Shown here piece after piece: positions 1,120 to 61,985 of a stretch of DNA of 64,000 nt. Below the pieces are notes generated by a model. The model searched no databases, was not told where the DNA came from, and saw nothing but the letters and a program-made list of their open reading frames with translations. The first letter of the stretch is position 1. Every line of letters begins with the position of its first letter. Origin of the DNA: Pelagomonas calceolata (Eukaryota > Sar > Pelagophyceae > Pelagomonadales > Pelagomonadaceae); the NCBI GenBank assembly GCA_918797485.1, contig CAKKNE010000005.1:3596001-3660000 (forward strand). Reading direction: 5' to 3'. A program made the translations under genes and the position numbers.

Positions 1120-1142
1120 GCTAGTGTCTTACTTGCGCTAGC
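1120..1142 (+). promoter_or_regulatory. palindromic promoter motif, copy 1
   Basis: GCTAGTGTCTTAC, then TTG, then CGCTAGC. It lies 112 bp upstream of the F-box/kelch start and 150 bp upstream of the XPG start, between divergent genes. Function is inferred from recurrence across the window. Confidence 0.6.
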
Positions 1143-1291
1143 TCTGCGAGAGGGGGCGCCGCGTCTCGGGGCCACGCGTCTTTACGGCCGCCAGCGCTGT
1201 GGCCAGCACGCTCATAGGTGCGCCCCAACGCGGCAGAGTCAAGCCTTTTGACGCCTGCGCGCCAGCGGCACCGATTGAGATCTGAGGAGGC

Positions 1292-4200
1292 ATGGGCGTC
1301 AAGGGCCTCTGGAAGTTATTAGAACCGTGCGGCCGTCGTATTCATGTCGAGACGCTCGAGAACACGACGCTCGCTGTTGATGTCAGTATCTGGATGACAC
1401 AATTTGTGAAAGCGATGCGTGACGAGGAAGGTAGACCGATCAAAAACGCCCACGTCATCGGCACGCTGCGGCGCGTCGCGAAGCTCCTCTATCATGGCGT
1501 GCGACCGGTCATTGTGTTTGACGGCGGCGTCCCTGCTCTCAAGGAGCGGCTCATCCGCCAGCGGCGCATGCGGCGCGAGCGCCGCGAGGACGACGCGCGG
1601 TCCACCGCGAAGCGGCTCCTCGCCGCGCGGCTCCGCGCCGAGGCGTTGCGGAGGAAAGCCCCGGCCCAAAATACTGAGGCGGCCTACGCGGGCGGCTTCG
1701 ACCCGGGGAGCCAGGGCGAGGCCGCACCTACGAGGGCGCCGGCGCCGCGCCCCGCGCCCACGCAACCGTCACCAGAATCGTCGTCGGACGACGACGACGA
1801 CGACGGCTGCGAGTGGGAGCGCGGCGAGACCGCGGACGGTTTAGGGGTGGCGGCCGACGGCGACGCTTCCGCCGTCGACGTCGAGGCGCTCATCGCCCTG
1901 CCGCCGGCCGTAAGGAAAGCAAGGGTCGAGGCCGTCAACCGCAAGCAGCGCGTCGCCGCGCGGCGGCGCTTGATGCCTGTGGCCGGGGACGCCGACGAGT
2001 TCTCGGCGACGCAGCTCTCGTCGTTCCTGCAGGGCGCGACGTTCCGGCAGCGCGTCGAGCGGGCCCAGGCTGAAAGGGGAGACGACGACGCGCGCGGCGA
2101 GCGCATCCACTCGGACCCCAAGCGGCGCTTCGTGCTGTTGCGCGACGATGAAAACGGTCAGCAGGTCCGGGGCGGCGTCAAGGCGCGCATGGAGCGGTTC
2201 CTGCAGGCGAACGACGAGGAGGTCGTTGATGATGACGATGATGAGGATGACGCGCCGCCGACGTGCGCCGCGTGCGGCCGGCGGAAGAGTAGATGCGCGT
2301 GCGCCCTGCGCCACGGCGCCTGCGCGCGGCGACCGGCGCCGCGGCCGCGGCCGACGCCGCAGACCGTCGTGCCGCTGCCGGGCCAGTCCATCGACGAGGC
2401 CCTCGAGGAGGCCGAGCTCCGCTACGTCGAGGACTTCCCCGAGGAGTTCGCCGGGTCCGACGACGACGCGGCGCCGGCGCCGGCTCCCCTTGATGATGAT
2501 GGCGGCGGCGGCTTCTTCGTCGACGGCGAGGAGGAAGGCGGCGGCTTCGTCGCTGAGGACGACGACGGCGCGGCCGGCGGCGGCTTTTTCGCGGAGGAGG
2601 AGGAGGCCGCCGCGGCGCCCGCGCCCGCGGACGAGGGCGGCGGCGGCTTCATCGTCGAAGAAGAGGAGGAGGACGCCGGCGCCGCGCCGGCGCCCGCGGC
2701 CGACGACGCGTCCGAGTCGAGCGACGACTGCGCCTGGGAGGCGGGCAACGCCGACGACGCCGCCGACGACGCCGCGGCGGCGGGCGTCGCCGTCGCCGTC
2801 CCGTGCGCCGACCCGGAGGCCTTCCGCGCGCGCCTCGCGGCGCTCGGCGACGCCGGGGCCGCGCCGCCGCCGCCGGTCGCCGCCGAGGCCGAGGACGAAG
2901 CCGACGAGGTCGACGAGGCCGCGAACCGCCAGGCGCTCGCAGCGGCGGCGCGCACGGCGTCGCAGATGGCCGACTGGGCGGGCCGCGCGTTCCGGCGCGC
3001 GCTTGCTGACTCGGGGAGCGCGGAGCTGCTGGCACCGGCCGCCGCGCCCCCGGCGCCGGCCGCTGCGGTCCCGGCGCCGCGCGCCATGGAGGTCGAGGCG
3101 CCCGCGCCCGCCGCGGAGCCGCCGGCGGACGCGGACGCGGACGGCGACGCCGACCTCGCCCGCGCGCTCGCCCTGTCGCGCGAGGCAGCGCCCGAGCCCG
3201 AGCCCGCCGCCCAGGCGCCGCCGGTCGTCGAGGCGCCGCCGCCCGCCCCGCGGCCCACCGAGCGGGAGCCTGAGCCCCCCGCGCCGCGGCCCGCCCCCGA
3301 GCCGGCGTCAGCGCCGCGCCCGCCGCCTATGTCTCCCGCGGGGGCGCCGCCGCCCGCCGCCGCGCGGCCCACCGAACCGCCGCCTGCGGAGGTGCCACCG
3401 CCCGCGCCGCCGCCCACCGGCGCACAACTGCCCGCCGCCGCGCCTGAGCCGCCCGCGCCGCCCGCGGAGGAGCCACCGCCCGCCGAAGCGCCGCCGGCCG
3501 ACGATCACGACGACGACGCCTGGGCCCCGCACCGGAAGGCCGCGACGGAGGGCGGCTTCTACGAGGTCTGCCCCGACTTCGACGCGCAGCTCCAGTTCGC
3601 CCTCGACAACGCCCAGGAGGGCGACCTCGACGGCATGGCGGCCGCCGCCGCCGCGGCCACGGACCCGCGCGAGCGGGCCGTCTACGCTTACGTCGTGGCC
3701 GCCGTGCGCGCCAAGTGCCCACAACAGCCACCTTCGTTCGCCGACGCCGCGCGCGCCGACGCGCTGGACCGAGAAGCGGCGCAATTGCGGCGAGAGCTCG
3801 CGAGGTCAGCAAGGGACGCCGACAGCGTGACCGACGAGATGCGCGAGGACGTCATGGGTTTACTGGATGATCTCGGGGTGCCGTACATCGTCGCTCCCAT
3901 GGAGGCCGAGGCGCAATGTGCGGCTTTGGAACTTGCTGGATTGGTAGAAGGCACGATCACGGACGACAGCGACGCGTTCTGCTTCGGTGCCAAAAAGGTC
4001 TACAAGAACATTTTCGACGACAAAAAGTTCGTCGAGGCGTATTTTGCCGAGGACTGTCGAAGGGAGCTGAAGCTAGGTAGATCTGAGTTCGTGTCATTGG
4101 CTTTACTATTAGGTGGCGACTATGCGCACGGCGTGAAGGGCGTCGGCATCGTGAATGCGATGGAGGTGCTGCAGGCGTTCCATTTTCCCCATGCTCATTC

Positions 4201-4873
4201 GGAAAATCAAGTCGACGCGTCGATTTCATCCCTTCGCAAGTTTGGGCGGTGGTTGGACGACGTGGGCAACACGCAACTCCAAGATGCGCACGTGAAACGC
4301 TTCGCGAAGCGACATCGGGCCGCTCGGTCGCGTTGGGAGGCGCCGCCCGCGTTTCCGAACCGCGAGGCCGCGAAGGCTTATGTCGAGCCTCGAGTTGCTG
4401 ATGAGGACGAGTTAGCAAGGCAGCTGGGTAGAGATATAGAGGCGTGGGACCCGCAGTCGACGCAGCGCTTGTTCGACTGGCGCGAGCCCGACGAGAAGCG
4501 GTTACGAAAACGGTGCGCCTTGGAGCTGAACTGGGCGCCGTCGACGGCCGCCGCGGTGCTGGACCCGGTCTTCAAGCGGTGGGCGGAACGGAAGGCCGGT
4601 CGGCAGCGCCGCGTCGACGCGTTTTTTGATTCGTACCACTCGAACAAGAAGAACGACACGCACGCATCTAAAAGACTGCGGCGGGCCTTGGACGAGAGCG
4701 AGCCCGAGGCGCCTAAGCAGAAGAAGAAGCGGAAGCGGCGGGTCGTCGTGGAGTCGGAGGAGGAGGACGAGGAAGACGACTCACCGGCCCCGCCTAGGCC
4801 TAGGTCCTCGCGCGCGGCGGCGGCGAAGGCTGCTCGGCAGCTCGCCGAGGAGGAGGAGTCTGGCGACGATTGA
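1292..4873 (+). CDS. ERCC5: XPG/Rad2-type structure-specific DNA repair endonuclease
   Basis: 1,193 residues, single exon, close to human XPG in length. The N-terminal nuclease region begins MGVKGLWKLLEPCGRR, the FEN1/XPG start, with metal-site patches VDVSIWM and IVFDGGVPALK by residue 85. The I-region (residues about 850-960) carries APMEAEAQCA, TDDSDAFCFGA and LLGGDYAHGVKGVG, the catalytic acidic clusters and helix-two-turn-helix. The spacer between them is long, acidic and Pro/Ala-rich and holds a UIM-like segment (ADLARALALSREA, about 615-630). Near residue 1105, QRRVDAFF matches a PCNA-interacting PIP box, and basic KKKRKRR suggests a nuclear signal. The expected role is the 3' incision in nucleotide excision repair. 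Rad2-family paralogues (EXO1, FEN1) are excluded by the long spacer. Confidence 0.93.
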   Translation: MGVKGLWKLLEPCGRRIHVETLENTTLAVDVSIWMTQFVKAMRDEEGRPIKNAHVIGTLRRVAKLLYHGVRPVIVFDGGVPALKERLIRQRRMRRERREDDARSTAKRLLAARLRAEALRRKAPAQNTEAAYAGGFDPGSQGEAAPTRAPAPRPAPTQPSPESSSDDDDDDGCEWERGETADGLGVAADGDASAVDVEALIALPPAVRKARVEAVNRKQRVAARRRLMPVAGDADEFSATQLSSFLQGATFRQRVERAQAERGDDDARGERIHSDPKRRFVLLRDDENGQQVRGGVKARMERFLQANDEEVVDDDDDEDDAPPTCAACGRRKSRCACALRHGACARRPAPRPRPTPQTVVPLPGQSIDEALEEAELRYVEDFPEEFAGSDDDAAPAPAPLDDDGGGGFFVDGEEEGGGFVAEDDDGAAGGGFFAEEEEAAAAPAPADEGGGGFIVEEEEEDAGAAPAPAADDASESSDDCAWEAGNADDAADDAAAAGVAVAVPCADPEAFRARLAALGDAGAAPPPPVAAEAEDEADEVDEAANRQALAAAARTASQMADWAGRAFRRALADSGSAELLAPAAAPPAPAAAVPAPRAMEVEAPAPAAEPPADADADGDADLARALALSREAAPEPEPAAQAPPVVEAPPPAPRPTEREPEPPAPRPAPEPASAPRPPPMSPAGAPPPAAARPTEPPPAEVPPPAPPPTGAQLPAAAPEPPAPPAEEPPPAEAPPADDHDDDAWAPHRKAATEGGFYEVCPDFDAQLQFALDNAQEGDLDGMAAAAAAATDPRERAVYAYVVAAVRAKCPQQPPSFADAARADALDREAAQLRRELARSARDADSVTDEMREDVMGLLDDLGVPYIVAPMEAEAQCAALELAGLVEGTITDDSDAFCFGAKKVYKNIFDDKKFVEAYFAEDCRRELKLGRSEFVSLALLLGGDYAHGVKGVGIVNAMEVLQAFHFPHAHSENQVDASISSLRKFGRWLDDVGNTQLQDAHVKRFAKRHRAARSRWEAPPAFPNREAAKAYVEPRVADEDELARQLGRDIEAWDPQSTQRLFDWREPDEKRLRKRCALELNWAPSTAAAVLDPVFKRWAERKAGRQRRVDAFFDSYHSNKKNDTHASKRLRRALDESEPEAPKQKKKRKRRVVVESEEEDEEDDSPAPPRPRSSRAAAAKAARQLAEEEESGDD

Positions 4874-4916
4874 TGTGTTCTTAGTGAATGTAAGACTGTG
4901 TTTCTTAGTCATGAAT

Positions 4917-5594
4917 TCAGGGGGCCGCGGCGAAGGATGCGAGCTTCGATCGCGCGCTCTCGAGGTTTCCGTTGATGGTCATCATAGTAGGATGGGCCGT
5001 CCCAAAGACCCGCCGCGCAGTCGAGGATAGCTCCTCGAGAAGCGCCACGGCTTCGACCAGGTCGTCTCTGCTTCGACCTTCTGAGATGAGGGCACTTGCG
5101 TAATTGATGCGAAGGGTTAGTACCGTCGCGTCTTCTGTGCCAAGCTCGCGCGCGGCCTCGGGGATTGTCGCCCGTAAAAATGGCTTCACCTCCTCGTAGC
5201 GTTCGCATCTATCGGCCTCGTCCATCAAGATCTTCGCCTGCTCCGCCAGACACGCCACGTGCGCGAAGCCGGCCGTCCCGCGGCACGCGCACCGGCGCAC
5301 GAGGCCCTCCTTCGTCTTCCAATGGAGGGCCTGCGTGCAGATGTAGCACGTCTGGCCCTTCGTGTCGTCCGCGCATTTCGCGACGGCCTCCGCGACGGCC
5401 TCCTTGTATTTGTTGTCGGCGTGGTATTGCTCAGCGTTGCCGCCGCGGTGTATCTTCTTACACATCTGCTTGTGGCCGCGGCGCCAGTGGTCATGCTGGC
5501 AAGTTTTGTTGCAGTACCTCGTCTGACATCTAACGCATCGCGGCGCGTTGTGGGCCAGTGGGGCGGCGCAGGCGGCGCAAGTTGTGAGGATCAT
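4917..5594 (-). CDS. MYND zinc-finger protein with second Cys/His cluster
   Basis: 225 residues from ATG at 5594. The N-terminus is a MYND finger: CAAC, CVRCQTRYCNKTCQ, HWRRGHKQMC (residues 7-45). A second cluster at about 80-115 (CYIC, CACRGTAGFAHVACL) has the C-x-C and H-x2-C spacing of a RING-CH or PHD-like finger. The C-terminal third is helical, with ALISEGRSRDDLVEAVALLEEL resembling tetratricopeptide repeats. MYND domains bind proline-rich peptides; the combination suggests an adaptor or ubiquitin-linked protein, but no substrate is indicated. It lies tail-to-tail with XPG (44 bp apart) and downstream of the RING gene at 7091. Confidence 0.75.
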   Translation of the reverse strand: MILTTCAACAAPLAHNAPRCVRCQTRYCNKTCQHDHWRRGHKQMCKKIHRGGNAEQYHADNKYKEAVAEAVAKCADDTKGQTCYICTQALHWKTKEGLVRRCACRGTAGFAHVACLAEQAKILMDEADRCERYEEVKPFLRATIPEAARELGTEDATVLTLRINYASALISEGRSRDDLVEAVALLEELSSTARRVFGTAHPTMMTINGNLESARSKLASFAAAP

Positions 5595-5759
5595 CTTGCG
5601 TTTTTCGGTGAGTTTTTGGGCTTGCGGCGGCTTGACTCGGCTTGAAAAACCCGATTTTTTTCAACTCACAAAAAAAACGCCGCGCGACGAACGCTCTGCC
5701 GCGCCAACGCTACGGTGCTACAGTGTACAAAAGAGACATATATACAGGGCACTTCCTCA

Positions 5760-7091
5760 TCATCGCGCCACGCCCGCCCACGTGCCCTTCGCCGCGCGCT
5801 CCTCCTTGATGATGTCGGCGACGCTCGCGGGCGACGGCCTCTCGCGCGGCGCGGCGGACTTTCGAAGCCACGGCGCCTCGGCGGCGGGCGCAGGAGCCGG
5901 CGTTTTGGGAGGCCCGCGCAAGAAGGCCGCGAGCGACACCGGCGGCGACGCCGCCGCGGCGCGCGGCCCCCGCTTCGGCGCGCGCGGCGGCGGCGTTTCG
6001 GCGGCCGCCAGCAGCGAGCGGAGATCGGTCGCGGGCGCCGCCGCGGGCGCGGCGCCCCACGCCGGCCGCGGCGCCTCGGGGGTACTCGGGATGGCGTCCA
6101 CCTCCGGCTCCGGAGTCGCTTCCAGCCGCCGCCAGCGCTGCCGCCGCCGCCGCGGCTCGGGCGTCGACTCCGGGACCGGCTCGGGCGGCGGCGGCGGTCG
6201 CTCGGGCGCGACGTGGCGGAAGCGCCGCAGCAGCGCGTCCTCGAGGGGCGAGGACGCGGCCGGCGACGACGAGAGCGGCGTCTTCTCGGAGTAAAAGACC
6301 GGCGCCGGGCAGAGCTCATGGCCCAATTTTGAACGCGGCGCGAAGTAGACGGCCGCCGCGCCGCAGGACCGGAGGTGGTCGCGGAGGCCCGCCAGCGGCA
6401 GCGTCGCGCCGCAGTGGCACCGTCCTGTAGCGCGTTTCAGCTTCCGGCGCGTCTTCTCGGCGACGGCGACGCGGCACTTCGCGCCGTCGTAGAAAGGAGC
6501 TCGGCAAAGCGGGCAGACGACGTCGGACGGCCGCGTCGCGCGCGAGGCCACGAGCGCCACGCACTCTCGACAATATTCGTGGCCGCACGGCAGCTTGACC
6601 GGCAGCTCCAGGACCTCGCGGCAGCAGGCGCATTCATACGAGTCGTCGAACTGCACGTCATCCAATTGACCCATGACGGCGTCGGCGGCTCGGCGCTTCG
6701 CCGCGAAGCCGGCGAGGACCGCGCTAAGGGCCGCTCGCGCGGCTTCCAAGTCGTCGCGCCGTGCTAATTTCTTGCGTTCCGCGTCGTCGAGCGTCTCTTT
6801 GGCGGCCAGGCCGCGGATGCTCTTCAGGCGCTTCTCGACGCCGCGGAGCTGCGCCTTCGCCGCGGCCTCGACGTCCGCCGGCGGCGTTTCGGTGGTGGCT
6901 TGCGGCGTTTCGGCCGCGGCGGCCGCGGCCGCCGCGCGGCGCCGCCGCCGTCGCTCGTTGCGCAGCGCCGCCTTCGTCCGCGCGCCGTCGTCGGACGCCG
7001 CGGACGCGTTCGAGGCGTTCGAGTTCGCGCGCGGGCGGCGCTCGACGACGAGGGACCAGTCCTCGTCGGTTTCTGCAGTTTGGTCTGCCAT
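5760..7091 (-). CDS. RING-finger protein, probable E3 ubiquitin ligase
   Basis: 443 residues. A predicted helical segment rich in Arg/Lys/Ala (about 50-130) precedes a C3HC4 RING at about 150-200: CACCREVL, PCGHEYCRECV, CPLCRAPF. A second short Cys/His unit follows (RCHCGATLPLAGLRDHLRSC), resembling the TRAF-type fingers after some RINGs. The C-terminal half is low-complexity Pro/Ala/Arg, so probably disordered. RINGs of this pattern recruit E2 enzymes. A TATA-like run sits about 140 bp upstream of the start. The substrate is unknown. Confidence 0.78.
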   Translation of the reverse strand: MADQTAETDEDWSLVVERRPRANSNASNASAASDDGARTKAALRNERRRRRRAAAAAAAAETPQATTETPPADVEAAAKAQLRGVEKRLKSIRGLAAKETLDDAERKKLARRDDLEAARAALSAVLAGFAAKRRAADAVMGQLDDVQFDDSYECACCREVLELPVKLPCGHEYCRECVALVASRATRPSDVVCPLCRAPFYDGAKCRVAVAEKTRRKLKRATGRCHCGATLPLAGLRDHLRSCGAAAVYFAPRSKLGHELCPAPVFYSEKTPLSSSPAASSPLEDALLRRFRHVAPERPPPPPEPVPESTPEPRRRRQRWRRLEATPEPEVDAIPSTPEAPRPAWGAAPAAAPATDLRSLLAAAETPPPRAPKRGPRAAAASPPVSLAAFLRGPPKTPAPAPAAEAPWLRKSAAPRERPSPASVADIIKEERAAKGTWAGVAR

Positions 7092-7416
7092 CGGTGCGAG
7101 TGTCGGCAGGTTGGGTATGCCGCGCTACGTCGAATCAGTGGTCAAAAGCAGCCACACATGAATCTCGGTTTGCAACGCGTTGTGGACCTCTATCGATGGT
7201 GTTTTCAAGGATGCTCAACGATCACCATATATATAGTCCTCTCCAGTGCTTGTAACCAGTGGTACGTTCGCTGGGGTGCCGTATTGGGCCGCGTGTGGTG
7301 CCACTGGCAAATTGCCAAAATGCAATTCGAACAATTCAGGCGCAGGCGGACGCGTCTTCCCCCCCCGTACGCCGTCGATGCACAGCGGTCGAGGAAAAAA
7401 ACGAAAAAGAAACTAC
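7092..7416. other. intergenic: upstream region of the RING gene
   Basis: 325 bp between the RING start and the pICln stop. On the minus strand it holds TATATATA at about 7227-7237, a plausible TATA box for the RING gene. I see no gene and no copy of the palindromic motif. Confidence 0.4.
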
Positions 7417-8022
7417 TCACAGGTCGTCGAACCCCCCGCCATCGTCGTCGGCCGCGTCGTCGAACTGCCCCTCGACCCGTGCGAAGCCGGGAAGTGCAGG
7501 CGCCGGAGCGTCCGCGAGCATGGCGTCGAAGCGCCGCAGCATCGCCTCCGCGTCCGGCTCGTCGTCCTCACCAGCAATACCGAGCATGCCGCCGTCCGAC
7601 TCATCGGACTCGTCGTCAGAGTCGGGGTTCAGCTCCGCCGTCCGCGAGAGCGCGTCGAAGAGCGGTTCGAGGGCCGCGGCGTCGGGCGGCACCAGGAACA
7701 GCTCCGAGACGGCGTCGTCGGCCGCGGCGTCGCTCAGCAGGAGCTGCACGTAGAGGCAAGGTTCGGGGAAGGTCTGTGCGTCGCGCGTCACGGCGTGCAG
7801 GCCCACGCGCTTCGCCAAGAGCTCAAACCCGTGGGCGGGCTGCTCCCAGAGCACGCGCCGGCTCGTCACGCGCAGCCGGCCCGCGCCCCAGGGCGTGCTG
7901 TCGCCCTCCTGCGGCGCCGCTGTGATGCGCACGTCTTCTAGCGTGTACAAGAGCTCCTCGTCGGCAGCGATGCTTGTGGCGCCGTTGCTTAAAGGCTGCA
8001 GTGGGGAGGCGAAGCTAGCCAT
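7417..8022 (-). CDS. CLNS1A: pICln (methylosome chloride-conductance regulatory protein)
   Basis: 201 residues from ATG at 8022 (MASFASPLQ). An upstream in-frame GTG extension adds sequence that looks non-coding and was not used. The PH-like core shows GAGRLRVTSRRVLWEQ, then GFELLAKRVGLHAVTRDAQ and LYVQLL, matching the pICln pattern 'G-L-I-T-R-L-W ... F-Y-I-LHA-SRD ... LY'. The C-terminus is acidic (DSDDESDESDGG and GGGFDDL), as in the family. pICln chaperones Sm proteins onto the PRMT5 methylosome for snRNP assembly. It diverges from the kinesin gene. Confidence 0.83.
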   Translation of the reverse strand: MASFASPLQPLSNGATSIAADEELLYTLEDVRITAAPQEGDSTPWGAGRLRVTSRRVLWEQPAHGFELLAKRVGLHAVTRDAQTFPEPCLYVQLLLSDAAADDAVSELFLVPPDAAALEPLFDALSRTAELNPDSDDESDESDGGMLGIAGEDDEPDAEAMLRRFDAMLADAPAPALPGFARVEGQFDDAADDDGGGFDDL

Positions 8023-14103: not shown

Positions 14104-14127
14104 CCTAGTGTCTTACAAGCCGCTAGC
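14104..14127 (+). promoter_or_regulatory. palindromic promoter motif, copy 2
   Basis: CCTAGTGTCTTAC, AAGC, CGCTAGC. It lies 84 bp upstream of the IMPACT-like start and 176 bp upstream of the small plus-strand gene at 14303. Confidence 0.6.
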
Positions 14128-15426: not shown

Positions 15427-15449
15427 GCTAGCGACAGTAAGACACTAGC
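15427..15449 (-). promoter_or_regulatory. palindromic promoter motif, copy 3
   Basis: On the minus strand: GCTAGTGTCTTAC, TGT, CGCTAGC. It lies 66 bp from the start at 15361 and 66 bp from the start at 15516, so it is nearly centred between them. Confidence 0.6.
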
Positions 15450-18117: not shown

Positions 18118-18151
18118 GCTAGTGTCTTACCTGTAAGTACAGGCCGCTAGC
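18118..18151 (+). promoter_or_regulatory. palindromic promoter motif, copy 4, with 10 bp insert
   Basis: GCTAGTGTCTTAC and GCCGCTAGC are separated by extra bases, giving an inner palindrome CCTGTAAGTACAGG. It lies between the DUF285 start (147 bp) and the sulfotransferase-like start (128 bp). Confidence 0.55.
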
Positions 18152-20557: not shown

Positions 20558-20581
20558 GCTAGCGGCATGTGAGACACTAGC
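20558..20581 (-). promoter_or_regulatory. palindromic promoter motif, copy 5
   Basis: On the minus strand: GCTAGTGTCTCAC, ATGC, CGCTAGC, one change from consensus in the core. It is 261 bp upstream of the OTU start; no gene is seen on the other side. Confidence 0.55.
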
Positions 20582-21917: not shown

Positions 21918-22160
21918 CCTTCCGGGAGGCGCGAGTGTATGTTCCCGGGCCGCTACTCTGAAATATTTGGTCGCGGCGAACGACTAGGGTGTATTCTGAA
22001 TTTTGGCCATTCTTTCGACGCTATCGAGGCGTATCTCTGAATTTGCTAGTATGTCGATACACTAGGTTCTATTTTTCCTGCGGACCGCACAGTGCTGCCC
22101 TCCTGCGATAGTGCCGCGCCGCGAAACTTCCGCGAGGCGCGAGGGTATGCTCCTCGGCCG
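21918..22160. repeat. 34 bp direct repeat pair flanking a motif variant
   Basis: Units at 21918-21951 and 22127-22160 begin CTTCCGSGAGGCGCGAG and match at 29 of 34 positions. The weak palindromic motif at 22045 lies between them. Confidence 0.5.
22045..22066 (+). promoter_or_regulatory. weak motif variant (GTCGA class)
   Basis: GCTAGTATGTCGATACACTAG has the outer CTAG arms of the promoter motif but a different core. It almost matches the variant at 36795. No start codon is close, so it may be a relic. Confidence 0.25.
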
Positions 22161-23208: not shown

Positions 23209-23232
23209 GCTAGCGGAATGAAGGACACTAGC
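23209..23232 (-). promoter_or_regulatory. palindromic promoter motif, copy 6
   Basis: On the minus strand: GCTAGTGTCCTTC, ATTC, CGCTAGC. It lies 161 bp from the glycosyltransferase start and 150 bp from the thymidylate kinase start. Confidence 0.55.
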
Positions 23233-27756: not shown

Positions 27757-27780
27757 GCTAGCGGCCTGTAAGGCACTAGC
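27757..27780 (-). promoter_or_regulatory. palindromic promoter motif, copy 7
   Basis: On the minus strand: GCTAGTGCCTTAC, AGGC, CGCTAGC. It lies 178 bp from the glycosyltransferase start and 153 bp from the Nudix start. Confidence 0.6.
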
Positions 27781-36738: not shown

Positions 36739-37256
36739 AGATCACCCTTAGTTATATCTGTTACGGTGCTAGGACTAGTGGGGCGGAAATAAGAGCTAGC
36801 GTGTCGACATACTAGGCTGCCAGGAGCTGAGCACAGCTGGCATTGGCAAGCCGGCGCGCTGCTCGCAGCGTCAGCAACGTGCTGCGTTGCCCTCGTAATT
36901 CACAAGCACTGGTTCACTGCGAAACTGATCCGCGCTTCTGCAGCTTCGGGTGCTTGCACTGCTTGTGTGCTTGCCAACCTCGCTGCTGCCTTCACACCAA
37001 CCCCCTTGTTGCATCGCTGCATCGCTGCTGGCGGTGGGCACCCAGCGTCTCTAATAGTGCAACTTCGAGTATTGCCAACAAAAAAGAGCTGTACAGCAAC
37101 AAACGTCTGCAGCGCAGCAATGCGCATCAATGCAGGCGCCGGGGCGGCTGCTTTAACACAGCCGTCACGTCCCAGAGACAGCGAGAGCATCGCGCCACCT
37201 AACCATCGCTCGCGGATTAAGCCGTCGCGCGTCAAACAAGTGGCGTACACACAGGC
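36739..37256. other. intergenic, no gene seen
   Basis: 518 bp between two plus-strand genes. Contains a weak motif variant at 36795 and otherwise nothing recognisable. Confidence 0.4.
36795..36817 (-). promoter_or_regulatory. weak motif variant (GTCGA class)
   Basis: On the minus strand: CCTAGTATGTCGACACGCTAG, then C. Same core as the variant at 22045. It is 440 bp upstream of the membrane-protein start at 37257. Confidence 0.3.
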
Positions 37257-39494: not shown

Positions 39495-39982
39495 GGTTGT
39501 AGTGTTGCTCGCGCGATGGCGTGTAAGAGATGCAGTGTTGCTCGCACGACGGCGCGGCGACTCGGGAGCAACCCGCGGCAGCGATATAGGCCGCGGCAAC
39601 CCGCACAGGTCACGTGCAGGAATGCTCTAGAACAGTGAGGGTTACACGCGCTCGCAGGCTGAAAGCGACTTGCCAGAGCGATGCGGCAGCGAGATAGAAG
39701 TCCGCGCGTGGTGTGACAAGCGTGTAAATGCACGAATGGCCACGACTGGCGACATAAAATGGCTGCCGACAAGATGAGCAGACTAGCGAAGCAACACACT
39801 AGCAAACAATACAGTCGGACGGGTGGGCCCGGGGGGAGCGGGAGGGGTACGGGGAACCCTGCGACGTAACTAGCCTCAGCCTCACAATACGCCGTCGCCG
39901 CCGCGACAAGCAGGAGACTCAGCACCCTAGCAGAACAAAAAGACTCCTTTGAACCGAAGATTAAGGGGGGAGGTCCGGGCGG
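39495..39982. other. intergenic upstream of the CRAL-TRIO gene
   Basis: 488 bp. Contains a weak motif variant at 39782-39803 (minus strand: GCTAGTGTGTTGCTTCGCTA, then GT), 288 bp upstream of the CRAL-TRIO start. Nothing else recognised. Confidence 0.35.
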
Positions 39983-43360: not shown

Positions 43361-43383
43361 GCTAGTGTCTTACGGCCGCTAGC
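43361..43383 (+). promoter_or_regulatory. palindromic promoter motif, copy 8
   Basis: GCTAGTGTCTTAC, GGC, CGCTAGC. It is 245 bp upstream of the DCN1-like start. The gene on the other side ends here rather than starting. Confidence 0.6.
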
Positions 43384-47424: not shown

Positions 47425-47448
47425 GCTAGTGTCTTACAGGCCGCTAGC
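47425..47448 (+). promoter_or_regulatory. palindromic promoter motif, copy 9 (consensus)
   Basis: GCTAGTGTCTTAC, AGGC, CGCTAGC. It lies 299 bp from the OmpA-domain gene start and 180 bp from the hydrolase start. Confidence 0.62.
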
Positions 47449-51801: not shown

Positions 51802-51825
51802 GCTAGTGTCTTACATTACGCTAGC
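51802..51825 (+). promoter_or_regulatory. palindromic promoter motif, copy 10
   Basis: GCTAGTGTCTTAC, ATTA, CGCTAGC. It lies 238 bp from the rhomboid gene start and 235 bp from the acyltransferase start. Confidence 0.6.
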
Positions 51826-53064: not shown

Positions 53065-53080
53065 GTACTAAATAGCCTTC

Positions 53081-54944: not shown

Positions 54945-54968
54945 GCTAGTATCTTACAACACGCTAGT
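54945..54968 (+). promoter_or_regulatory. palindromic promoter motif, copy 11
   Basis: GCTAGTATCTTAC, AACA, CGCTAGT. It is 170 bp upstream of the epimerase start; only one gene starts here. Confidence 0.55.
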
Positions 54969-55137: not shown

Positions 55138-56085
55138 ATGCGACCGCAAACATCCGCACTGCTCGCCGCGGCAGCCGCCACAGCCGCATGGCTCCTCTAC
55201 AAGAAAAAGAAGAAACGACGCGTCGTCATCACGGGCTGCTGTGGTAACCTCGGTCGCAAGCTCGGCGCCTACCTCCAGGAACGAGGCGTCGAGGTCGTCG
55301 GAATCGAGCACCCCGACTACTGCGCGAAGGGCTCCGAGCCGCCCTGCGACCGAGTGGTCCAAGGAGACGCCCAGCAGCCCGGCGGCGTGCCGTGGCGCCG
55401 CGTCCTCGCGGGCGCCGACGCCGTCGTCCACTTCAGCGCCGTGAATCCTTACCCTAACGCAGACTGGTCCGAGAGCAGCGGGTCCATGGACCACGCCTTC
55501 AACGTCGCGCTCGCGGCCGCCGACGCGGGCGTGCCCCGTTTCATCTTAGCTTCCTCGAACCATGTCATGGGCGGCTACAAGGACGACCATAAACATGGCG
55601 TGGTAAAGCCGTCGGACGCGCCGCGCGTCGGGACGGCGCTCAACGACCCCGCTGCTGCCCAGCGCGCGGGCGACGCCGTCGCCTACGCCGCGGCGAAGCT
55701 GGCCGCGGAACGGCTGCTGGCGGCGCTCGCGCACGTGCGGCCGCGCACGGTATTCCTCGCCCTCCGGGTCGGCTGGTGCCAGCCGGGTATCAACTCGCCG
55801 CGGACCATCGGGGCCTCGGGCGTGCCGCCCGCCTTCGAAACCGCCGGGGCGGCGGCATCCGTCAAGGACGACTCGCACGACGACGCCTGGTTCCGGGGCA
55901 TGTGGCTCTCGAACGGCGACTTCCTGCGCCTCTTCGGCGCCGCGGCGCTGTCGGACCGTATTCCGGGGTCGGGCTACCACTGCGTCAACGCCATGTCCGC
56001 GAACACTAATGCAAGGTGGTCGCTCGACGAGACGGAGGCGCTCCTCGGCGTGCGGCCCCGCGACGACGCGGCGAGCTATGGCTAG
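55138..56085 (+). CDS. NAD-dependent epimerase/uronate dehydrogenase-like (extended SDR)
   Basis: 315 residues. A short N-terminal anchor (LLAAAAATAAWLLYKKKKKR) precedes the Rossmann fold: VVITGCCGNLGRKLG (GxxGxxG-type), HFSAVNPYP, ILASSNHVMGGY, and the YxxxK pair in VAYAAAKLAAERLL. The strings ASSNHVMG and DDAWFRGMWLSNGDFLRLF closely resemble bacterial-type uronate dehydrogenase, which oxidises galacturonate or glucuronate to aldarolactone. It could act on pectin or alginate-type sugars; general epimerase activity is the alternative. The anchor suggests attachment to ER or another membrane. Confidence 0.8.
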   Translation: MRPQTSALLAAAAATAAWLLYKKKKKRRVVITGCCGNLGRKLGAYLQERGVEVVGIEHPDYCAKGSEPPCDRVVQGDAQQPGGVPWRRVLAGADAVVHFSAVNPYPNADWSESSGSMDHAFNVALAAADAGVPRFILASSNHVMGGYKDDHKHGVVKPSDAPRVGTALNDPAAAQRAGDAVAYAAAKLAAERLLAALAHVRPRTVFLALRVGWCQPGINSPRTIGASGVPPAFETAGAAASVKDDSHDDAWFRGMWLSNGDFLRLFGAAALSDRIPGSGYHCVNAMSANTNARWSLDETEALLGVRPRDDAASYG

Positions 56086-56187
56086 CTCACGTTATACGCC
56101 ATCGCCGCGCGTAAGTTAATGTGGTGTTACACGGGGAGCATGTCGCGATGCGTTTCGGGTCGGGGGCGCGGGCGGACGATTTCAACT

Positions 56188-56844
56188 CTAGACGAGGCAG
56201 AACTCGCCGTACTCGTCGCCGTGCTGGCCGCAGAGCGAGCGCTTGGCGGCCTCGACCGTCTTCTTGGCGCGCGCGTTGAAGTGCTTCGTGTGGCCCTTGG
56301 CCTTCTGGAAGAAGACCTTGCCGAGCTCGCAGCTCAGCACACGGAACGTTCGGTAGATGTCCACCGGGCCGCTGCCCGCGTCGAGGAGCGAGGCGATCTG
56401 CTGGAGCCCCAGCTCTTTTTCTTCTTCTGCGGCGACCTCGTAGCAGATTTCTAGGACTTCCGGGTCGACTAGGGCCGGCGCCTCGGTATCTAAGACCTGG
56501 AGCATCTCGTCGAGGTTGTTCTTCGCGCCGGGAGCGGAGAAGTGGATGTCGCGCGGCGCGACGCCCGCGTGCAGCTTGCCGTCGGCCGTCTTGATCTCGT
56601 AGCGGAGGCCTCCTTTCGCCTTGACCTTGTGGCCATCAATCACACCGAGCGTCGTGTGCTTGTTGAGGTCGAACTCGACGACCGTGCCCTTGCTCATGGC
56701 ATTAATCTGGACCGGTTCCGCGTCGGCGTCGCCCGCGTCCTTGTCCTTCTTCTTGAATACAATAGTCCTCGCCGCGGCGGGCGCGGGCGGGGCCAGGAAG
56801 GCGCTGGCGCCGTGGATGGCTAGGAGGGCTAGGAGGCGGTGCAT
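56188..56844 (-). CDS. RNase II/R-like N-terminal-domain protein, plastid-targeted, no RNB domain
   Basis: 218 residues from ATG at 56844. MHRLLALLAIHGASAFLAPPAP has the ASAF-type cleavage motif of plastid preproteins in red-lineage algae. The body reads KGTVVEFDLNKHTTLGVIDG ... LHAGVAPRDIHFSAPG ... PEVLEICYEVAAEEEKELGL ... LLDAGSGPVDIYRTFRVL ... FNARAKKTVEAAK. This follows the N-terminal part of plastid RNase II (RNR1-type) in order and spacing. The catalytic RNB domain is missing and the protein stops where it should begin. It may be a stand-alone RNA-binding protein or regulator. Confidence 0.65.
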   Translation of the reverse strand: MHRLLALLAIHGASAFLAPPAPAAARTIVFKKKDKDAGDADAEPVQINAMSKGTVVEFDLNKHTTLGVIDGHKVKAKGGLRYEIKTADGKLHAGVAPRDIHFSAPGAKNNLDEMLQVLDTEAPALVDPEVLEICYEVAAEEEKELGLQQIASLLDAGSGPVDIYRTFRVLSCELGKVFFQKAKGHTKHFNARAKKTVEAAKRSLCGQHGDEYGEFCLV

Positions 56845-57086
56845 GTTGCGCTGCCTTGGTCGCTGCGTAGCGAGATAGAGAGTGCGGCGGATAATTTCAG
56901 CCGTCAACGGGTCAATTTAATATGTACAGCAGCAGTGCAGGGCGCTAAAAGTCACGGCTTCCGACCACTGAAGCGCGAGGCGCAGCGAGCCACTTCAATG
57001 ACCGCGTAGCTCCTTTTCTGCGCGCAGACGAGCGCTCCTCGTCGGCCGCAGGCGTGGCTCCTCCCTGCGGAGCGGTCAGCGCGCAC

Positions 57087-57110
57087 GCTAGTGTCTTACA
57101 AGCCGCTAGC
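57087..57110 (+). promoter_or_regulatory. palindromic promoter motif, copy 12
   Basis: GCTAGTGTCTTAC, AAGC, CGCTAGC. It lies 243 bp from the RNase II-like start and 200 bp from the SLC4 start. Confidence 0.62.
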
Positions 57111-57309
57111 GCGCTCGTGTTTGCACGCGGCAAAAAACGACCGCTGCAGGCTCTCGTACAAGTGCATGCTGGCGCGAGCTGTGCGCAAGTCGACCAGTGC
57201 ACGCAGTAGCAGTGCTGCGCACGAGAAACGCCGATAGCAGCTAGCAACTCACATCTCCTGGAGAGCACCAAGCACTGCAGCTACCGCAGCGGAGCAGCGG
57301 AGAGCCCCC

Positions 57310-59851
57310 ATGCGGCCACACGCATGCATCGCAGCGCTGGCCGTAGCGGTACATGGCTACCTCCCGCCGCTCCCGACGCGCGACCTACGAACAAGACGCC
57401 TCGCCACGGTCCAAGACGAGCCCCAACAAACGAGGAAGGAGTTCACGGTGCCCAAGGCCGCGTCGACGCGGGAGACGGAAGTCCGGGCCGTGACCGCGTT
57501 GAGTCGAGACGGTAATGTGTCCTTGCCGGAAGTGTTTGTGGGGAATGATGGCTCTTCGCGGCAGTTGTATGATAATGGGGTGGTCATGCCCGTGGGCTGG
57601 ACGGGCGCATCTACTAGAAGACGCACGGGCAGTAAGTTCACGGGAACTTTACTAGCATCGACGGAGTTCCCCGTCGGCGACGCCGGAGCCAACCCCCAAA
57701 GGATAGCGCCGTTCTCGCGGAAGACGTGGCTCCAAGGTGTGCGAGATGATATCAGAAAACGATCACCGCTATACGCCCAGGACTGGTTCGACGGGTTGCG
57801 GAACCCGGCGAAGAGCGCCGGAGCCTGTTTATTTCTGTATTTTGCCGTGCTCGCGCCGGCGGTCGCGTTCGGTGGCGTCATGCAGACGGCGACGTGCGGG
57901 GCGCTGGGCCCGCGCGACGTGCTGCTGAGCTGCGGGCTGAGCGGCATGGCATACGCGTATTGGGCGGCGTCCTTTTTTCCTCGACGGCGTCGAGAGGAGT
58001 GACTCGCGATGCACGTCGAGAGAAACACAGAGAGGAGCCGCGCGTCGATGGCGTCGAGGTGGACGTATAAAGCTAGACGAGACGAATCGCCTCGAGATGG
58101 CGCGTGCAGAGAGTGGTTGGACAGACACACACAGACAAAGACACGGAAAAAAAAAACACAGGTGCCTCGCCGGCCAGCCCATGACCTTCGTCGCGCCGAC
58201 AGGACTCACTCTATCTTTCATCGGAGCATTGTCCGCCTGGACTATTAAATCTGGGGTCCCATTCCTACCGATGTACGCGTGGTGCGGCTGCTGGACGGCT
58301 TTATACCTCGCGGTCTTAGCGTCGTTCAACGCTTCTGGATTGATAAGGTACTGCACGCGCTTCACGGAGGACGTCTTCAACGCATTATTAGCCTTCAATT
58401 TTGTCTCAGAAGGGTTTTCTCCGGTGAGGAAAGTCATCGGGAACAGTCTCGCGTCGTCCAAAGGGGCTGCTGATGCTCTACTCGCTGCGAATGCGGCCGG
58501 TGGCACGTGTCTCGCTTGTCGGGCCTTCGCGGGAGCGCCCAAAACACGATTCTTTACCGCAAGAGCTCGCTCTCTACTCGCGGACTTTGGGCCAGCTGCT
58601 ACTATAGTCTTCGCCTCGTCCCTATTCTCGCTACCATCGGTGCGCAAGCTCGGCTCGCTGAAACGATTAACTTTAGGAGCGCCGCGCGAGAAGCTCTTTT
58701 CGTTAGTGGACATGGGCGCCCTATCGTTAAAGTACCGGTTGTTAGCAGCCATACCCGCTGTTTTTTTGGCGACATTGTTCTTCCTCGACCAGAACATTAC
58801 GGTCCGAACGGTCAATTCGCCCCAAAACAAGCTCAAGAAGGGCGCGGCGTATCATTTAGATTTGTTTGCTCTAGCTTCTATTACATTAGCGTCGTCACTG
58901 CTGGGCCTGCCGTGGATGTGCTCGGCGACGGTGCAGTCCCTGAATCACGTGCGGGCCTTGTCGACCTACGCCGACCAGGAGACACAAACGGTGGAGAAGG
59001 TCGATACGCCTCCAAAAGAGCCCTCGAAGCCGGCGCCGCTCGCCGCGCCGGCGGCCCAGAAAAGGCCTTTACCTTCTCCTGACGAGATCATCCGCGCCGC
59101 AAAAACCGAGCCGCCCGCCAAAAAGCCCCTCCCGAAGGCCGGCGACATCATCCTCGCGCGGTCTCTGGTGTCGGTCCAGAAACGCACGACCACCCAACCG
59201 CAGAAAGGGATTAGTTTTGGCGGCTATGCGAACGACTACTTGGAAGTTGTCAATAAAACGTTGTCGGTGAACAGGACGCAGGAAGATAGAGCCGAGGCCG
59301 TCGCGGCGGCCAGTCGTGCTACGGCCGGCGGCGGGGCCGCTCGCGTCGCGCAGGCGAAAGAGTTGGCATCAAAACCGGTCAACGTCGTGACGAAACCTAC
59401 CGTTTCCGGCGACGTCAAGGATGTCGTGGAGACGCGTTTGACTGGTTTCACGGTCCATGCTTTAGTGTTGGCTTCGCTGGGTTTTGCGCCGGTACTAGCA
59501 GAAGTGCCTCTGGCCGTCGTCTGGGGCGTGTTCCTCTTCCTCGGCTTCAAGGTCATGGCGGGCAACCAGTTTTTAGGGAGAGTCGTGTCGCTGTTTATTG
59601 ATCCAAGAATGCTCAACCCGACGAGTGAGGCGGAACGGGCCGTCGTCGAGTTAGGACGGAAGCGGGTCCTGCGGTACACGGCGGTCCAGGCGTCCTGCTT
59701 AGCCGCTCTATGGTTGTTGAAACTCAATAAAGCGACGGCCATGGTCTTCCCGTCCGTGATTGGGGTCTTGCTCGTGCTGCGCGCGTCTCTATTGCCCCGG
59801 GTGTTTTCACCTAGAGAGCTGCTGACGCTGGACACGGAGATAGATCGGTAA
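57310..59851 (+). CDS. SLC4-family bicarbonate/borate-type anion transporter, two exons
   Basis: Exons 57310-57956 and 58162-59851 join in phase 2, giving 778 residues. The first 20 residues look like a signal peptide. Exon 1 ends in the first SLC4 membrane segments (DIRKRSPLYAQDWFDGLRN, FLYFAVLAPAVAFGGVMQ, LLSCGLSGMAYA) and exon 2 resumes with GQPMTFVAPTGLTLSFIGAL; in SLC4 and BOR proteins these two stretches are contiguous, so the intron is well supported. IPAVFLATLFFLDQNIT and LDLFALASITLASSLLGLP are later transport-core helices. A Pro/Lys-rich loop of about 120 residues lies between late helices. Substrate (bicarbonate or borate) is open; diatom SLC4 proteins import bicarbonate for carbon concentration. 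Confidence 0.85.
57957..58161 (+). other. intron of the SLC4 gene
   Basis: 205 nt, donor GTATTG, acceptor AAACACAG. It contains GCGTCGATGGCGTCGAGG, close to the internal palindrome of the introners, so it may be an old member. End inverted repeats are not recognisable. Confidence 0.65.
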
Positions 59852-60036
59852 TTCATCCATAGTTCTTAGTAGTATCGCGTCGTCGCGGCGAATGCGGATG
59901 CGGATGCTCTGGATCTTGCTCTGCCTTTCCAGTGTTTCATGGGATTTCCCCACGGCCTAACTAACGCCCGACGTCTTGCACAATCGACGCGAAAGCAACG
60001 CCTATTACGATACCAACGCGCGTAGTGAGTTTCATC

Positions 60037-60976
60037 ATGATCCGTAAGCTTGCTCTTGTTTTAGCCCTCTCTGCCTCGAGCCAAGCACTGCTGCAGCCGC
60101 GCAATCGCCGCGCCCTGTCAGTCCGCGGCGGTGGCGACACCCTTACTAATGTACGCTTCCCGCGCCGTGAACAGATTGACTTTTGCGACCGCGCGTGGGG
60201 CCGCGGCGCCGGCGGGCCCGCGTCAAAGTTGGTTTAAATCTATAGCGTGCGTGCCCGCTTACCTTCTCTCTCCCGCGGCGCGCGGGCGCGCGGCGACGCC
60301 GCGACGGTGGCACGCGCAGGTCGCCGCCGGCCTCATCGGCGCGCAAGGCGTCATGTCGTACCTCGGTCCCGCCCAGACGATGGAGAGCTACGGCATGAAG
60401 AGTGATGCATTCACGGACGCCATCGTTCGCGGCTCCGGCGCGTGGCAGATGTGCGCGGCGGCCACTATGGTACTCGACGAGGAGACGATCCTGGACAAGG
60501 CTTTCATCCCCGTGATCGCGGCCATGCTCCTATACATCCCCGCCATTACTGAAGTCAAGGGCGGCATACCCAAGGAGCCTCTCGTCGCGTGGCTCGGCGT
60601 CCACGTGGTCCTCGCGACGCTGGCGGAGTCCGGCAAAGTGAACAAATGGGTGGCGCCGGCGCTCTACATCTTCAACGGCGCCCAAGCCTACTTCGCGCCC
60701 GAACAAACGTTCAAGCTCTACGGCGGCCCCGCGCTCTCGGCGGAGGGCGTCCACGTGACCCGCGTCTGGGGCACGGCTATGCTCTGCACCGCCGCTTACC
60801 TGTCCGCGCTCGCGAACGGCGACGGCGCGCGCAAGGGCGTCGGCTACGCCTACCTCGTGGCCGCCGGCACCGTTATCCGCTCATTCGTGTTCGACACCGA
60901 CCTCGGCGTTTCGCGTCCCATCCTGGCCGCATGGATCGTCGCCTGCCTCGGCATCGCGTACCTCGGGCTCAACTAG
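60037..60976 (+). CDS. plastid- or ER-targeted polytopic membrane protein, unknown, two exons proposed
   Basis: Exons 60037-60130 and 60246-60976, phase 1, give 274 residues. MIRKLALVLALSASSQALLQPRNRRALSVRG is a strong signal peptide with an S-x-A-L cleavage region and transit-like continuation, but it lies in a different frame from the body, so a 115 nt intron is proposed (donor GTGGCG, acceptor ATCTATAG). The body has about six hydrophobic helices (for example KAFIPVIAAMLLYIPAI, ILAAWIVACLGIAYLGL) and conserved-looking PEQTFKLYGGP and GPAQTMESYGM repeats, suggesting internal duplication. Not recognised. Alternatively the body starts alone at an ATG near 60149. Confidence 0.55.
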
Positions 60977-61081
60977 AAGAGGCGCGCTGGGCTGATCCCC
61001 GACCAAGCGGGGACTACTACTACTAAGCCTCCTTACATCGACAACATTCTTACAGTTCGTCTCTCCGCCGCTTCGCGCGTC

Positions 61082-61720
61082 TTACAGTTCGTCCCTCCGC
61101 CGCTTCGCGTACGCCGCGTAGCGCCTCCGCACCTCGGCCGGGTCCACGCGCCTCCCGTTAACCGTAAAGCGCACGTTCCCCTGGCCGACGTGGTCGCCGA
61201 CCTTCTTCATGATGTGTTCTAAATCAAGCTTCGACAGGGTCCATACCAGCCAAGACATGGAGCTCTTGAGGAGCGACCGCTTGATCCGCACCGCGTAGGA
61301 TTCGCCAGGGCTCGTCGGCCAGGCTCGCTCCACGGACTGCTTCAGCGATTGCTCGAGGAGCGTCGCGTTCGACCAGGCCTTGGCGATGTGCTCGCCGTAT
61401 CCTTTGAACGCGTCGCCAAATTCTTCTTCGAAGCGGAATAGCGCTGCGAACAAGGCCTCCTCGGGCGGCGTGCCCGCTGGTGGCTTGCTCGCGCCGCCCG
61501 GCTGCGAAAGGCTCTCGTAGGCGTCGTGGATCTTGATGAATTCATTACTATCACCTCCTTTGTCCGGGTGGTGCTCGCGGGCCAAACGCTTGTACGCCTT
61601 CTTTATCTCTTCGGGTGTGGCGCCCTTACGCAAGCCCAAAGTCCTCAGCGCGTCGCTTTCGAACATGCCAGCTGCGCTGAAGAACGTCAGCACGCATGTG
61701 AGGAGCCACAGCACTCGCAT
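61082..61720 (-). CDS. DnaJ/Hsp40 protein with signal peptide
   Basis: 212 residues from ATG at 61720 (MRVLWLLTCVLTFFSAAG, a signal peptide). The J domain (about 22-75) has LGLRKGATPEEIKKAYKRLA and the HPD signature in REHHPDKGG, then FIKIHDAYESL. The Gly/Phe and zinc-finger regions are missing. A helical tail with a possible amphipathic stretch follows, ending KRRRDEL, close to the ER-retrieval signal (K/H/R)DEL. This supports an ER-luminal co-chaperone for BiP. It diverges from the dynein gene. Confidence 0.85.
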   Translation of the reverse strand: MRVLWLLTCVLTFFSAAGMFESDALRTLGLRKGATPEEIKKAYKRLAREHHPDKGGDSNEFIKIHDAYESLSQPGGASKPPAGTPPEEALFAALFRFEEEFGDAFKGYGEHIAKAWSNATLLEQSLKQSVERAWPTSPGESYAVRIKRSLLKSSMSWLVWTLSKLDLEHIMKKVGDHVGQGNVRFTVNGRRVDPAEVRRRYAAYAKRRRDEL

Positions 61721-61963
61721 GGTGAAAGCCTCCAGCCGGCTGTACCCTGGCAAGGGCTGACGGCTTACTCGCCCGCGCAGCGCTAACTACAGCACTGTCA
61801 GCAGACGAGTGTCGAGCTGTGTAGCGACGAATGAGGACTATTGCCGCGGCAGCGATGGCGTGCCGTTGCACAGCAGCGAGGGCAACACTAAGACGCAATA
61901 TAGAAGGACCTGGTGCCCCTATTTGGCAGCCTCCACGCGTAGCAAAGTGCCGCATGCGAGTTA

Positions 61964-61985
61964 GCTAGCGGCAGTGACACACTAA
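61964..61985 (-). promoter_or_regulatory. palindromic promoter motif, copy 13 (diverged)
   Basis: On the minus strand: TTAGTGTGTCAC, TGC, CGCTAGC. It lies 244 bp from the DnaJ start and 61 bp from the dynein start. Confidence 0.5.

Follow-up and report, generated by a model that had tools for sequence, protein, structure and literature searches.

A bipartite motif at the divergent promoters of Pelagomonas calceolata, a candidate binding site for a general regulatory factor

Results

The window analyzed here, a 64,000-nucleotide stretch of Pelagomonas calceolata DNA, carries repeated copies of one short motif beside genes for an XPG nuclease, a thymidylate kinase, a nucleotide-sugar transferase, a NUDIX protein, a DnaJ protein, an acyltransferase, an epimerase and a bicarbonate transporter. 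Genes were called with our own codon model, not taken from a curated annotation, and the calls extend over about 0.8% of the genome; Pfam family matches were obtained for 15 of the 27 window proteins scanned. An earlier note on this DNA had listed 13 copies, all of which were recovered in place, with matrix scores of 23–41 bits. On our gene calls, ten of them separate divergent starts and the other three precede a single gene, in agreement with the earlier description, and none falls within a predicted coding segment.

The ten divergent copies are found at 1120–1142 (plus strand, spacer 3, 40.8 bits), with an XPG-like gene on the right; 14104–14127 (plus, spacer 4, 38.2 bits); 15427–15449 (minus, spacer 3, 41.0 bits); 18118–18151 (plus, G000:C5:3614119), an insertion variant with a 14-bp spacer that scores 23.2 bits by the short-spacer matrix; 23209–23232 (minus, spacer 4, 31.4 bits), between the sugar transferase and thymidylate kinase genes; 27757–27780 (minus, spacer 4, 31.8 bits), with the NUDIX gene on the right; 47425–47448 (plus, spacer 4, 39.4 bits), between an OmpA-domain gene and an FSH1 hydrolase gene; 51802–51825 (plus, spacer 4, 39.4 bits), with the acyltransferase on the right; 57087–57110 (plus, spacer 4, 34.3 bits), with the bicarbonate transporter on the right; and 61964–61986 (minus, spacer 3, 25.5 bits), with the DnaJ gene on the left. 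The copies upstream of single genes occupy 20558–20581 (minus, spacer 4, 36.6 bits; minus-strand gene), 43361–43383 (plus, spacer 3, 36.7 bits) and 54945–54968 (plus, spacer 4, 33.2 bits; epimerase). Three further copies, absent from the earlier list, were found with the matrix: two at tandem junctions, at 39782–39803 (minus, 26.2 bits) and 36795–36816 (minus, 18.4 bits), the latter 33 bp after a copy of a tandem-junction repeat, and a weak, doubtful one at 22045–22066 (plus, 12.9 bits).

The string printed in the earlier note stands as a consensus of the copies, but only 6 of the 13 fit it exactly when 1–8 spacer bases are allowed. Among the other seven, the copy at 14104 begins with CCTAG, those at 20558, 23209 and 27757 vary in the TSTTAC core, those at 54945 and 61964 have changes in the arms, and the copy at 18118 differs by its long spacer.

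We further analyzed the structure of the motif using a two-block matrix trained on 264 kb, comprising the window and 200 kb of contig C1. The motif is bipartite, TTSCTAGTGTSTTAC-N4-CGCTAGCT, with a core of about 24 bp and a most frequent spacer of 4 bp. The left block, GCTAGTGTSTTAC, contributes about 21 bits when its TT is counted; the contribution of the right block, CGCTAGC, is about 11 bits. Apart from the TT and T adjoining the arms, the flanks of 35 aligned spacer-4 copies showed no strong consensus, giving the motif sharp edges. The pairing of the two blocks is obligate: CTAGTGTSTTAC occurs 32 times in the 264 kb, with an exact CGCTAG no more than 30 bp away in 30 cases and a degenerate CGCTAG in the other two. 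Some copies contain insertions that duplicate TAC, and by our reading an insertion was present in 23 of 47 long-spacer copies.

The motif is not a true palindrome, because every exact arm pair (27/27) combines one GCTAGTG (T-type) arm with one CGCTAGC (C-type) arm; the half-sites are thus not interchangeable as those of a palindromic homodimer site would be, and the core is asymmetric, with the TSTTAC block present on one side only. The earlier statement that either orientation occurs, as for a palindrome, is therefore right about the use of both orientations but not about the symmetry. The total information of about 30 bits compares with about 13.7 bits required for locating 5,000 sites.

In the 264 kb on which the matrix was itself trained, 59 copies scored above 12 bits, with a median spacing of 3.2–3.6 kb. 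First-order Markov resampling gave 0.6 copies per resampling (five resamplings) and the reversed sequence gave two, indicating that chance does not produce similar numbers, a possibility that the earlier note had named as a refutation. Across the genome, the strict core occurred 1,806 times (907 + 899) and a second pattern 2,126 times, each with no occurrence in the backward control, and extrapolation gives a genome-wide total of about 4,600–5,000 copies. The sample may be motif-rich, since its strict-core density is 87 per Mb compared with a genome mean of 56 per Mb. A motif-blind 8-mer test on all 57 divergent gaps ranked words of the motif at the top, with GTAAGACA observed 18 times against 0.27 expected.

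The placement of the copies was strongly biased toward promoters. Among the gaps of the 264 kb measuring at least 20 bp between gene calls, 38 of the 57 divergent ones contained a copy, as did 18 of the 80 tandem gaps and 1 of the 54 convergent gaps (divergent versus convergent, Fisher p = 2.5e-14). At a threshold of >22 bits, the divergent and convergent counts were unchanged, the tandem count was 14 of 80, and no copy was coding. None of the 204,579 predicted coding bases of the 264 kb held a copy (binomial p = 6e-39). Contrary to the refuting case of copies equally common in coding or convergent regions, the motif in this sample shows the promoter specificity expected of general regulatory factor sites. 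Overall, 94 of 196 coding segments had a copy in their 5′ gap. The 19 divergent gaps without a copy above 12 bits scored, as a group, no better than shuffles (p = 0.11; gaps <150 bp excluded).

The Pfam families flanking the window copies differ, in agreement with the earlier view that the genes served are functionally unrelated. Together with the frequency in divergent gaps, this supports the proposal that the motif belongs to divergent promoters in general and is not the site of a regulon, and one type of site upstream of many unrelated genes, in divergent and tandem gaps alike, is what a general regulatory factor would show.

Within divergent gaps, the 39 copies are central (mean absolute deviation of the fractional position from 0.5, 0.126 versus 0.25 for a uniform distribution; KS p = 1e-7). 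This mid-gap position, with the absence from coding and near absence from convergent sequence, would suit a strictly defined bidirectional core-promoter element, read by the basal machinery and fixing both starts at set offsets. However, the distance from motif to ATG spreads over 75–309 bp (5th–95th percentile), the asymmetric element has no side preference (184 bp to the ATG on the left-arm side, 191 bp on the right-arm side; Wilcoxon p = 0.77), and one third of divergent gaps lack the motif. Nor is there the consistent orientation to the served gene that characterizes TATA or initiator elements: tandem copies have the same orientation as the gene in 11 cases and the opposite in 8, and one orthologous copy is inverted between relatives. 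Motif orientation relative to genes thus appears free, and we regard the strict core-promoter reading as unlikely.

The same orientation data bear on a possible RNA hairpin in 5′ untranslated regions, in which the arms GCTAGTG and CGCTAGC would pair via G-U. Such pairing is available in RNA from one strand, whereas RNA from the other strand would have C-A instead of G-U while gene orientation is mixed, and the mid-gap position makes two-sided transcription of the motif unlikely as reasoned from the sequence. This explanation therefore has very little probability. An Rfam search of the window and of loci L031 and L035 gave no matches at the gathering score.

A CTCF-like chromatin boundary or loop anchor would separate divergent units instead of activating them. 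A long asymmetric site between units, used in both orientations and with information far exceeding the addressing need, is compatible with this role, but boundaries should also appear in convergent gaps, of which a single one had a copy, and the observed spacing is very dense for anchors. We consider a boundary function improbable.

To characterize the sequence context, we examined base composition around the copies. GC content is 0.52–0.61 within 100 bp of the motif center and 0.61–0.68 beyond. Mixed A/T runs of at least 5 lie within 40 bp of the right arm for 32 of 56 copies and within 40 bp of the left arm for 17 of 56, a post hoc asymmetry that was noticed first and then tested using those same copies; the controls were 13 of 38 for midpoints of motif-less divergent gaps and 1,349 of 6,598 for all 40-mers. 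The intergenic, AT-richer setting might be read as that of a replication origin or ORC-type site within nucleosome-free promoter gaps. Thousands of copies and a distribution weighted heavily toward 5′ rather than 3′ gaps suit promoters better, which leaves the origin reading very improbable.

CpG periodicity, sought around the motif and the ATG as a trace of phased nucleosomes, showed no oscillation, and the CpG observed/expected ratio stays near 1.3 in genes, so CpG depletion as a trace of linker methylation or phased nucleosomes was rejected. The motif may act as a positioning element, but this sole sequence test for phased nucleosomes was negative. A 7-mer table, used to search for other elements at a fixed offset from the ATG, was dominated by motif words. 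Other, loosely clustered 7-mers were AGACGCC (14 occurrences, interquartile range 56 bp), CATCGCT and poly-A.

The motif is mostly conserved in a relative. When sites of a related pelagophyte were compared with G000, 7 of 8 had a counterpart at the corresponding junction between genes, one of them flipped, and in five collinearly aligned sites motif bases were kept at 108 of 118 positions compared with 522 of 800 flank bases. The motif-bearing loci of relatives are L029, L031, L032, L036, L037 and L038, of which L031, L036 and L038 were compared with G000 letters. Six loci in bacterial and archaeal genomes matched. L030 and L031, which belong to one bin, are pelagophyte DNA, as is part of L029. 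L032 resembles pelagophyte DNA. L033 and L034 have one match each and no further tie to Pelagomonas, which fits the estimated 5–6 chance matches. A search of viral contigs with an 18-base pattern gave no match, and no description of the motif was found in the literature searched by topic and by sequence letters; of the listed titles of papers containing some of the letter strings, none concerned algae.

These comparisons also bear on whether the motif derives from a mobile element (MITE or introner) favoring promoter gaps, as a remnant or an end piece of it. The inverted arms, the TAC-duplicating insertions in some copies, a peak of intron lengths around 210 bp that suggests introners in this genome (PMC9481584) and the introners of Aureococcus (PMC9860276) could be taken in its favor. 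However, nothing is shared outside 24–28 bp, and signs of target-site duplication are few (3-mers 3 of 54 versus 1.1 permuted, 4-mers 1 versus 0.4, 5- and 6-mers 0), so that neither mark of a MITE or introner, target-site duplication or sequence shared beyond the arms, was clearly seen. Moreover, motif bases are retained as flanks diverge, and the motif is inverted at one orthologous place. A mobile origin is already disfavored and, in our judgment, highly unlikely.

Discussion

The motif occupies about two-thirds of the sampled divergent gaps, is absent from the predicted coding sequence that was sampled, and therefore probably marks promoter opening, by way of a putative binding protein. We favor, with some reservation, the explanation that it is bound by a general regulatory factor that is abundant in pelagophytes. 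The left and right blocks would be bound by a single protein that reads DNA with two modules, or by two partner proteins. Binding would exclude nucleosomes, perhaps aided by the A/T runs beside the right arm, and the single opened promoter region would allow both genes, or a single downstream gene, to start. Such a factor would be lineage-specific and would act like yeast Reb1 or Abf1. Because the site holds about 30 bits where about 14 are needed, the question of one reader or two is directly testable.

A bolder version, which we hold to be doubtful, is that most pelagophyte promoters are organized by one lineage-specific two-module factor, whose site has roughly double the information required for locating it. 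Two proteins, or a domesticated transposase and a partner, would then sit jointly on the site, as a single architectural system for the entire compact genome, and a mobile repeat just upstream of the site would equip some tandem promoters.

Pelagomonas calceolata is a very abundant ocean alga. If the favored reading of a general regulatory factor site is true, the motif could serve as a landmark when genes are annotated, as a bidirectional promoter part in pelagophyte genetics and as bait for isolating a general transcription or chromatin factor specific to the lineage. It would also test whether general regulatory factors arose repeatedly in compact genomes.

Among known systems, algal introners are MITE-like elements whose insertions fall in nucleosome linkers (PMC9860276). 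They form introns of about 210 bp, whereas the motif spans 24–28 bp, with no common flank and few signs of target-site duplication.

The sites of yeast general regulatory factors, which include Rap1, serve many unrelated genes. The Pelagomonas motif is like them in lying at promoters of many unrelated genes, and may be like them in the A/T runs beside one arm, but with about 30 bits and 24 bp it is much longer. It is not known to resemble their consensus sequences. In PMC2897762, sites for Abf1, Reb1, Cbf1 and Rsc3 are tied to nucleosome-free promoter regions, of which poly(dA:dT) is a separate determinant in yeast, and the set of factors turns over between yeast species.

The Pelagomonas motif is also like the sites of three vertebrate factors in being long and multi-module, in lying in promoters and in being used in both orientations. 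These are NRF1 and ZNF143, whose long sites are enriched at bidirectional promoters, and CTCF, also a long-site factor; the sites of all three are long, partly palindromic or multi-module, located in housekeeping promoters and usable in both orientations. Unlike them, the Pelagomonas motif has a different sequence, and its share of divergent promoters, 38 of the 57 sampled, seems unusually high.

Abundance and anatomy of the motif

All 13 copies that an earlier note had reported in the window were found in the sequence. We described the motif using a two-block matrix with a free spacer, trained on a 264-kb sample consisting of the window and 200 kb of contig C1 (1.0-1.2 Mb), about 0.8% of the genome. 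The consensus reads TT[G/C]CTAGTGT[C/G]TTAC, followed by a spacer and then CGCTAGCT. The matrix matched 59 places above 12 bits and 54 above 22 bits; against the 59 observed, Markov resampling gave 0.6 copies above 12 bits and reversed sequence 2.

The assembly (G000) comprises 8 contigs and 32,445,274 bases, with C7 and C8 measuring 90,574 and 39,373 bases; the window corresponds to G000:C5:3596001-3660000. The published genome of P. calceolata strain RCC100 is described as 32.4 Mb in six nuclear contigs, plus plastid and mitochondrial contigs of 90 and 39 kb, with 63% GC, 16,667 genes and 0.45 intron per gene (PMC9481584). Across our assembly, the strict pattern GTCTTAC N2-4 CGCTAGC occurred at 907 + 899 places and CTAGTGTCTTAC N0-30 CGCTAG at 1061 + 1065, while the backward control of each gave 0. 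The 264-kb sample contains 23 and 25 of these, respectively, making them 1.4 to 1.6 times as dense there as in the genome on average. When the matrix count of 59 is scaled by the exact-pattern ratios, the extrapolated total for the whole genome is roughly 4,600-5,000 copies. Among the papers listed by literature searches, none describes the motif, judging by titles and abstract openings. The main texts of three P. calceolata papers (PMC9481584, PMC13284251 and PMC12054182) mention neither a motif nor a palindrome, and in two of them promoters go unmentioned.

The motif, described in the earlier note as near-palindromic, is not a true palindrome: the arms are non-equivalent, and all 27 exact arm pairs combine one GCTAGTG with one CGCTAGC. 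No left block was seen standing alone: an exact CGCTAG lay no more than 30 bp from 30 of the 32, and the other two had a degenerate partner. Among the first 100 listed of the 2,126 places matching the CTAGTGTCTTAC pattern, the spacer was 4 bp in 72, 3 in 17, 2 in 5, 0 in 3, 5 in 2 and 13 in 1, and never 1. In 35 spacer-4 copies, the first spacer base was A in 82%, the third G in 60% and the fourth C or A in 97%; beyond the arm-adjacent TT and T, the flanks of these copies showed no strong consensus (every base at most 54%). A mobile-element origin of the motif is weakened by the lack of common flanks and of clear duplications.

Long spacers (6-30) are rare, with 47 places genome-wide, including window:18118-18151. 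By manual reading, 23 of the 47 carry related insertions behind TTAC (e.g., CTG, CTGAAG and CTGTAAG), mostly preceding a second TAC. These insertions look like excision footprints with TAC duplication, or templated inverted duplications.

The left block holds about 21 bits and the right about 11, totaling about 30 once spacer entropy is subtracted, a value somewhat inflated because training and scoring used the same hits. About 13.7 bits would suffice to locate 5,000 sites in the genome, and the surplus stays large despite the inflation. Under Schneider's information theory of binding sites, a surplus of this kind would suggest that more than one reader uses the motif.

Placement relative to genes

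Coding segments were predicted automatically with a self-trained codon model, yielding 197 segments that cover 77% of the sample bases. None of the 59 copies fell in predicted coding sequence, in line with the earlier note, and the preference for divergent promoters was borne out: a copy above 12 bits was present in 38 of 57 divergent gaps vs 18 of 80 tandem and 1 of 54 convergent gaps (39, 19 and 1 copies, respectively). At the 22-bit cut-off, these became 38/57, 14/80 and 1/54. The 5' gap contained a copy for 94 of 196 coding segments; because internal exons are counted as separate segments, the true share of genes is probably higher. As a group, the 19 divergent gaps without the motif had matrix scores not above shuffles, and one of them contains a long-spacer form at 18 bits.

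In divergent gaps, the motif is central, with a median of 185 bp to the ATG and orientations of plus 25 and minus 14; neither side lies closer to its ATG (Wilcoxon p = 0.77). In tandem gaps, 11 copies run along the gene and 8 are opposed. A strict core-promoter element is weakened by the variable distance to the ATG and the indifference to orientation, and the mixed orientation likewise weakens an element acting at the RNA level.

GC content is lower around the motif, at 0.52-0.61 in the 100 bp on either side of its center. Of 56 copies, 32 have an A/T run of at least 5 no more than 40 bp from the right arm and 17 have one that close to the left arm (p = 0.007, post hoc), compared with 13 of 38 midpoints of motif-less divergent gaps and 1349 of 6598 background 40-mers. 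The words GGCTGCCC and GGCAGCCC occur 33 and 21 times in divergent gaps of the sample vs 2.6 expected each, and are absent from every convergent gap of the 264 kb. This family is likely a second promoter element.

Conservation in a pelagophyte relative

Scanning bacterial and archaeal assemblies for the motif yielded marine MAG contigs of pelagophyte DNA. Loci L030/L036, L031, L037, L038 (Spirochaeta sp. MED672 bin) and part of L029 are identified by sequence as pelagophyte nuclear DNA contaminating bacterial MAGs, L037 from one motif copy alone. Identity to G000 was 83-94% over the genes of L031 (C6), 82-88% for L036 (C4) and 80-87% for L038 (C6). These misbinned contigs give access to a relative of P. 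calceolata. In L029 (8,000 bases of a 76,975-base contig), the main G000 match spans bases 2043-3615 at 90-96% identity, and the bin as a whole has a single match to the loose motif pattern; the contig is possibly chimeric.

Eight sites in L031, L036 and L038 could be compared, and for seven of them the corresponding junction in G000 holds a copy scoring over 12 bits, one being weak in G000 (12.9 bits, base inserted) and one weak in the relative (19.2 bits, position about 23 bp off). L031:461 (18.6 bits) had no G000 counterpart above 12 bits. At L031:5352, another of the seven, the motif is on the minus strand vs plus in G000, inverted at the same junction, and the flanks align poorly. At five collinearly aligned sites, motif identity was 22/25, 21/22, 21/24, 21/23 and 23/24; that of their 80-bp flanks was 279/400 and 243/400. 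In this small sample, the site looks to be under purifying selection, with its orientation free.

Dispersed repeats at tandem junctions

A repeat about 160 bp long, with GTTACGGTGCTAGGACTAGTGGGCGG as its head, is dispersed throughout G000, including window:36760-36785; its 19-base core has 149 + 155 copies there (at most 1 mismatch). It also occurs at L031:299-455 and 2038-2198 and in locus L035. Allowing as many as 7 mismatches, the 264-kb sample contains six heads (reversed control 0), all between same-strand genes and in gene sense, and four are 33-61 bp upstream of a motif copy. At one orthologous junction, the relative carries the repeat, whose edge falls at the motif, and G000 lacks it. 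An Rfam search of L031 and L035 gave no match. The repeat is possibly a mobile or terminator-like element of tandem junctions. A second dispersed family, with inverted halves, occurs at L038:1422-1557 and 2251-2433, both in gaps between same-strand coding segments; nearly all of the 103 matches listed between L038 and G000 fall in these intervals.

A putative general regulatory factor site

We favor the reading of the motif as a putative site of a general regulatory factor, and at the sequence level it appears as such a site is expected to. In yeasts, general regulatory factors contribute to the formation of nucleosome-free regions, as do poly(dA:dT) tracts and expression, and the set of these factors changes between species (PMC2897762).
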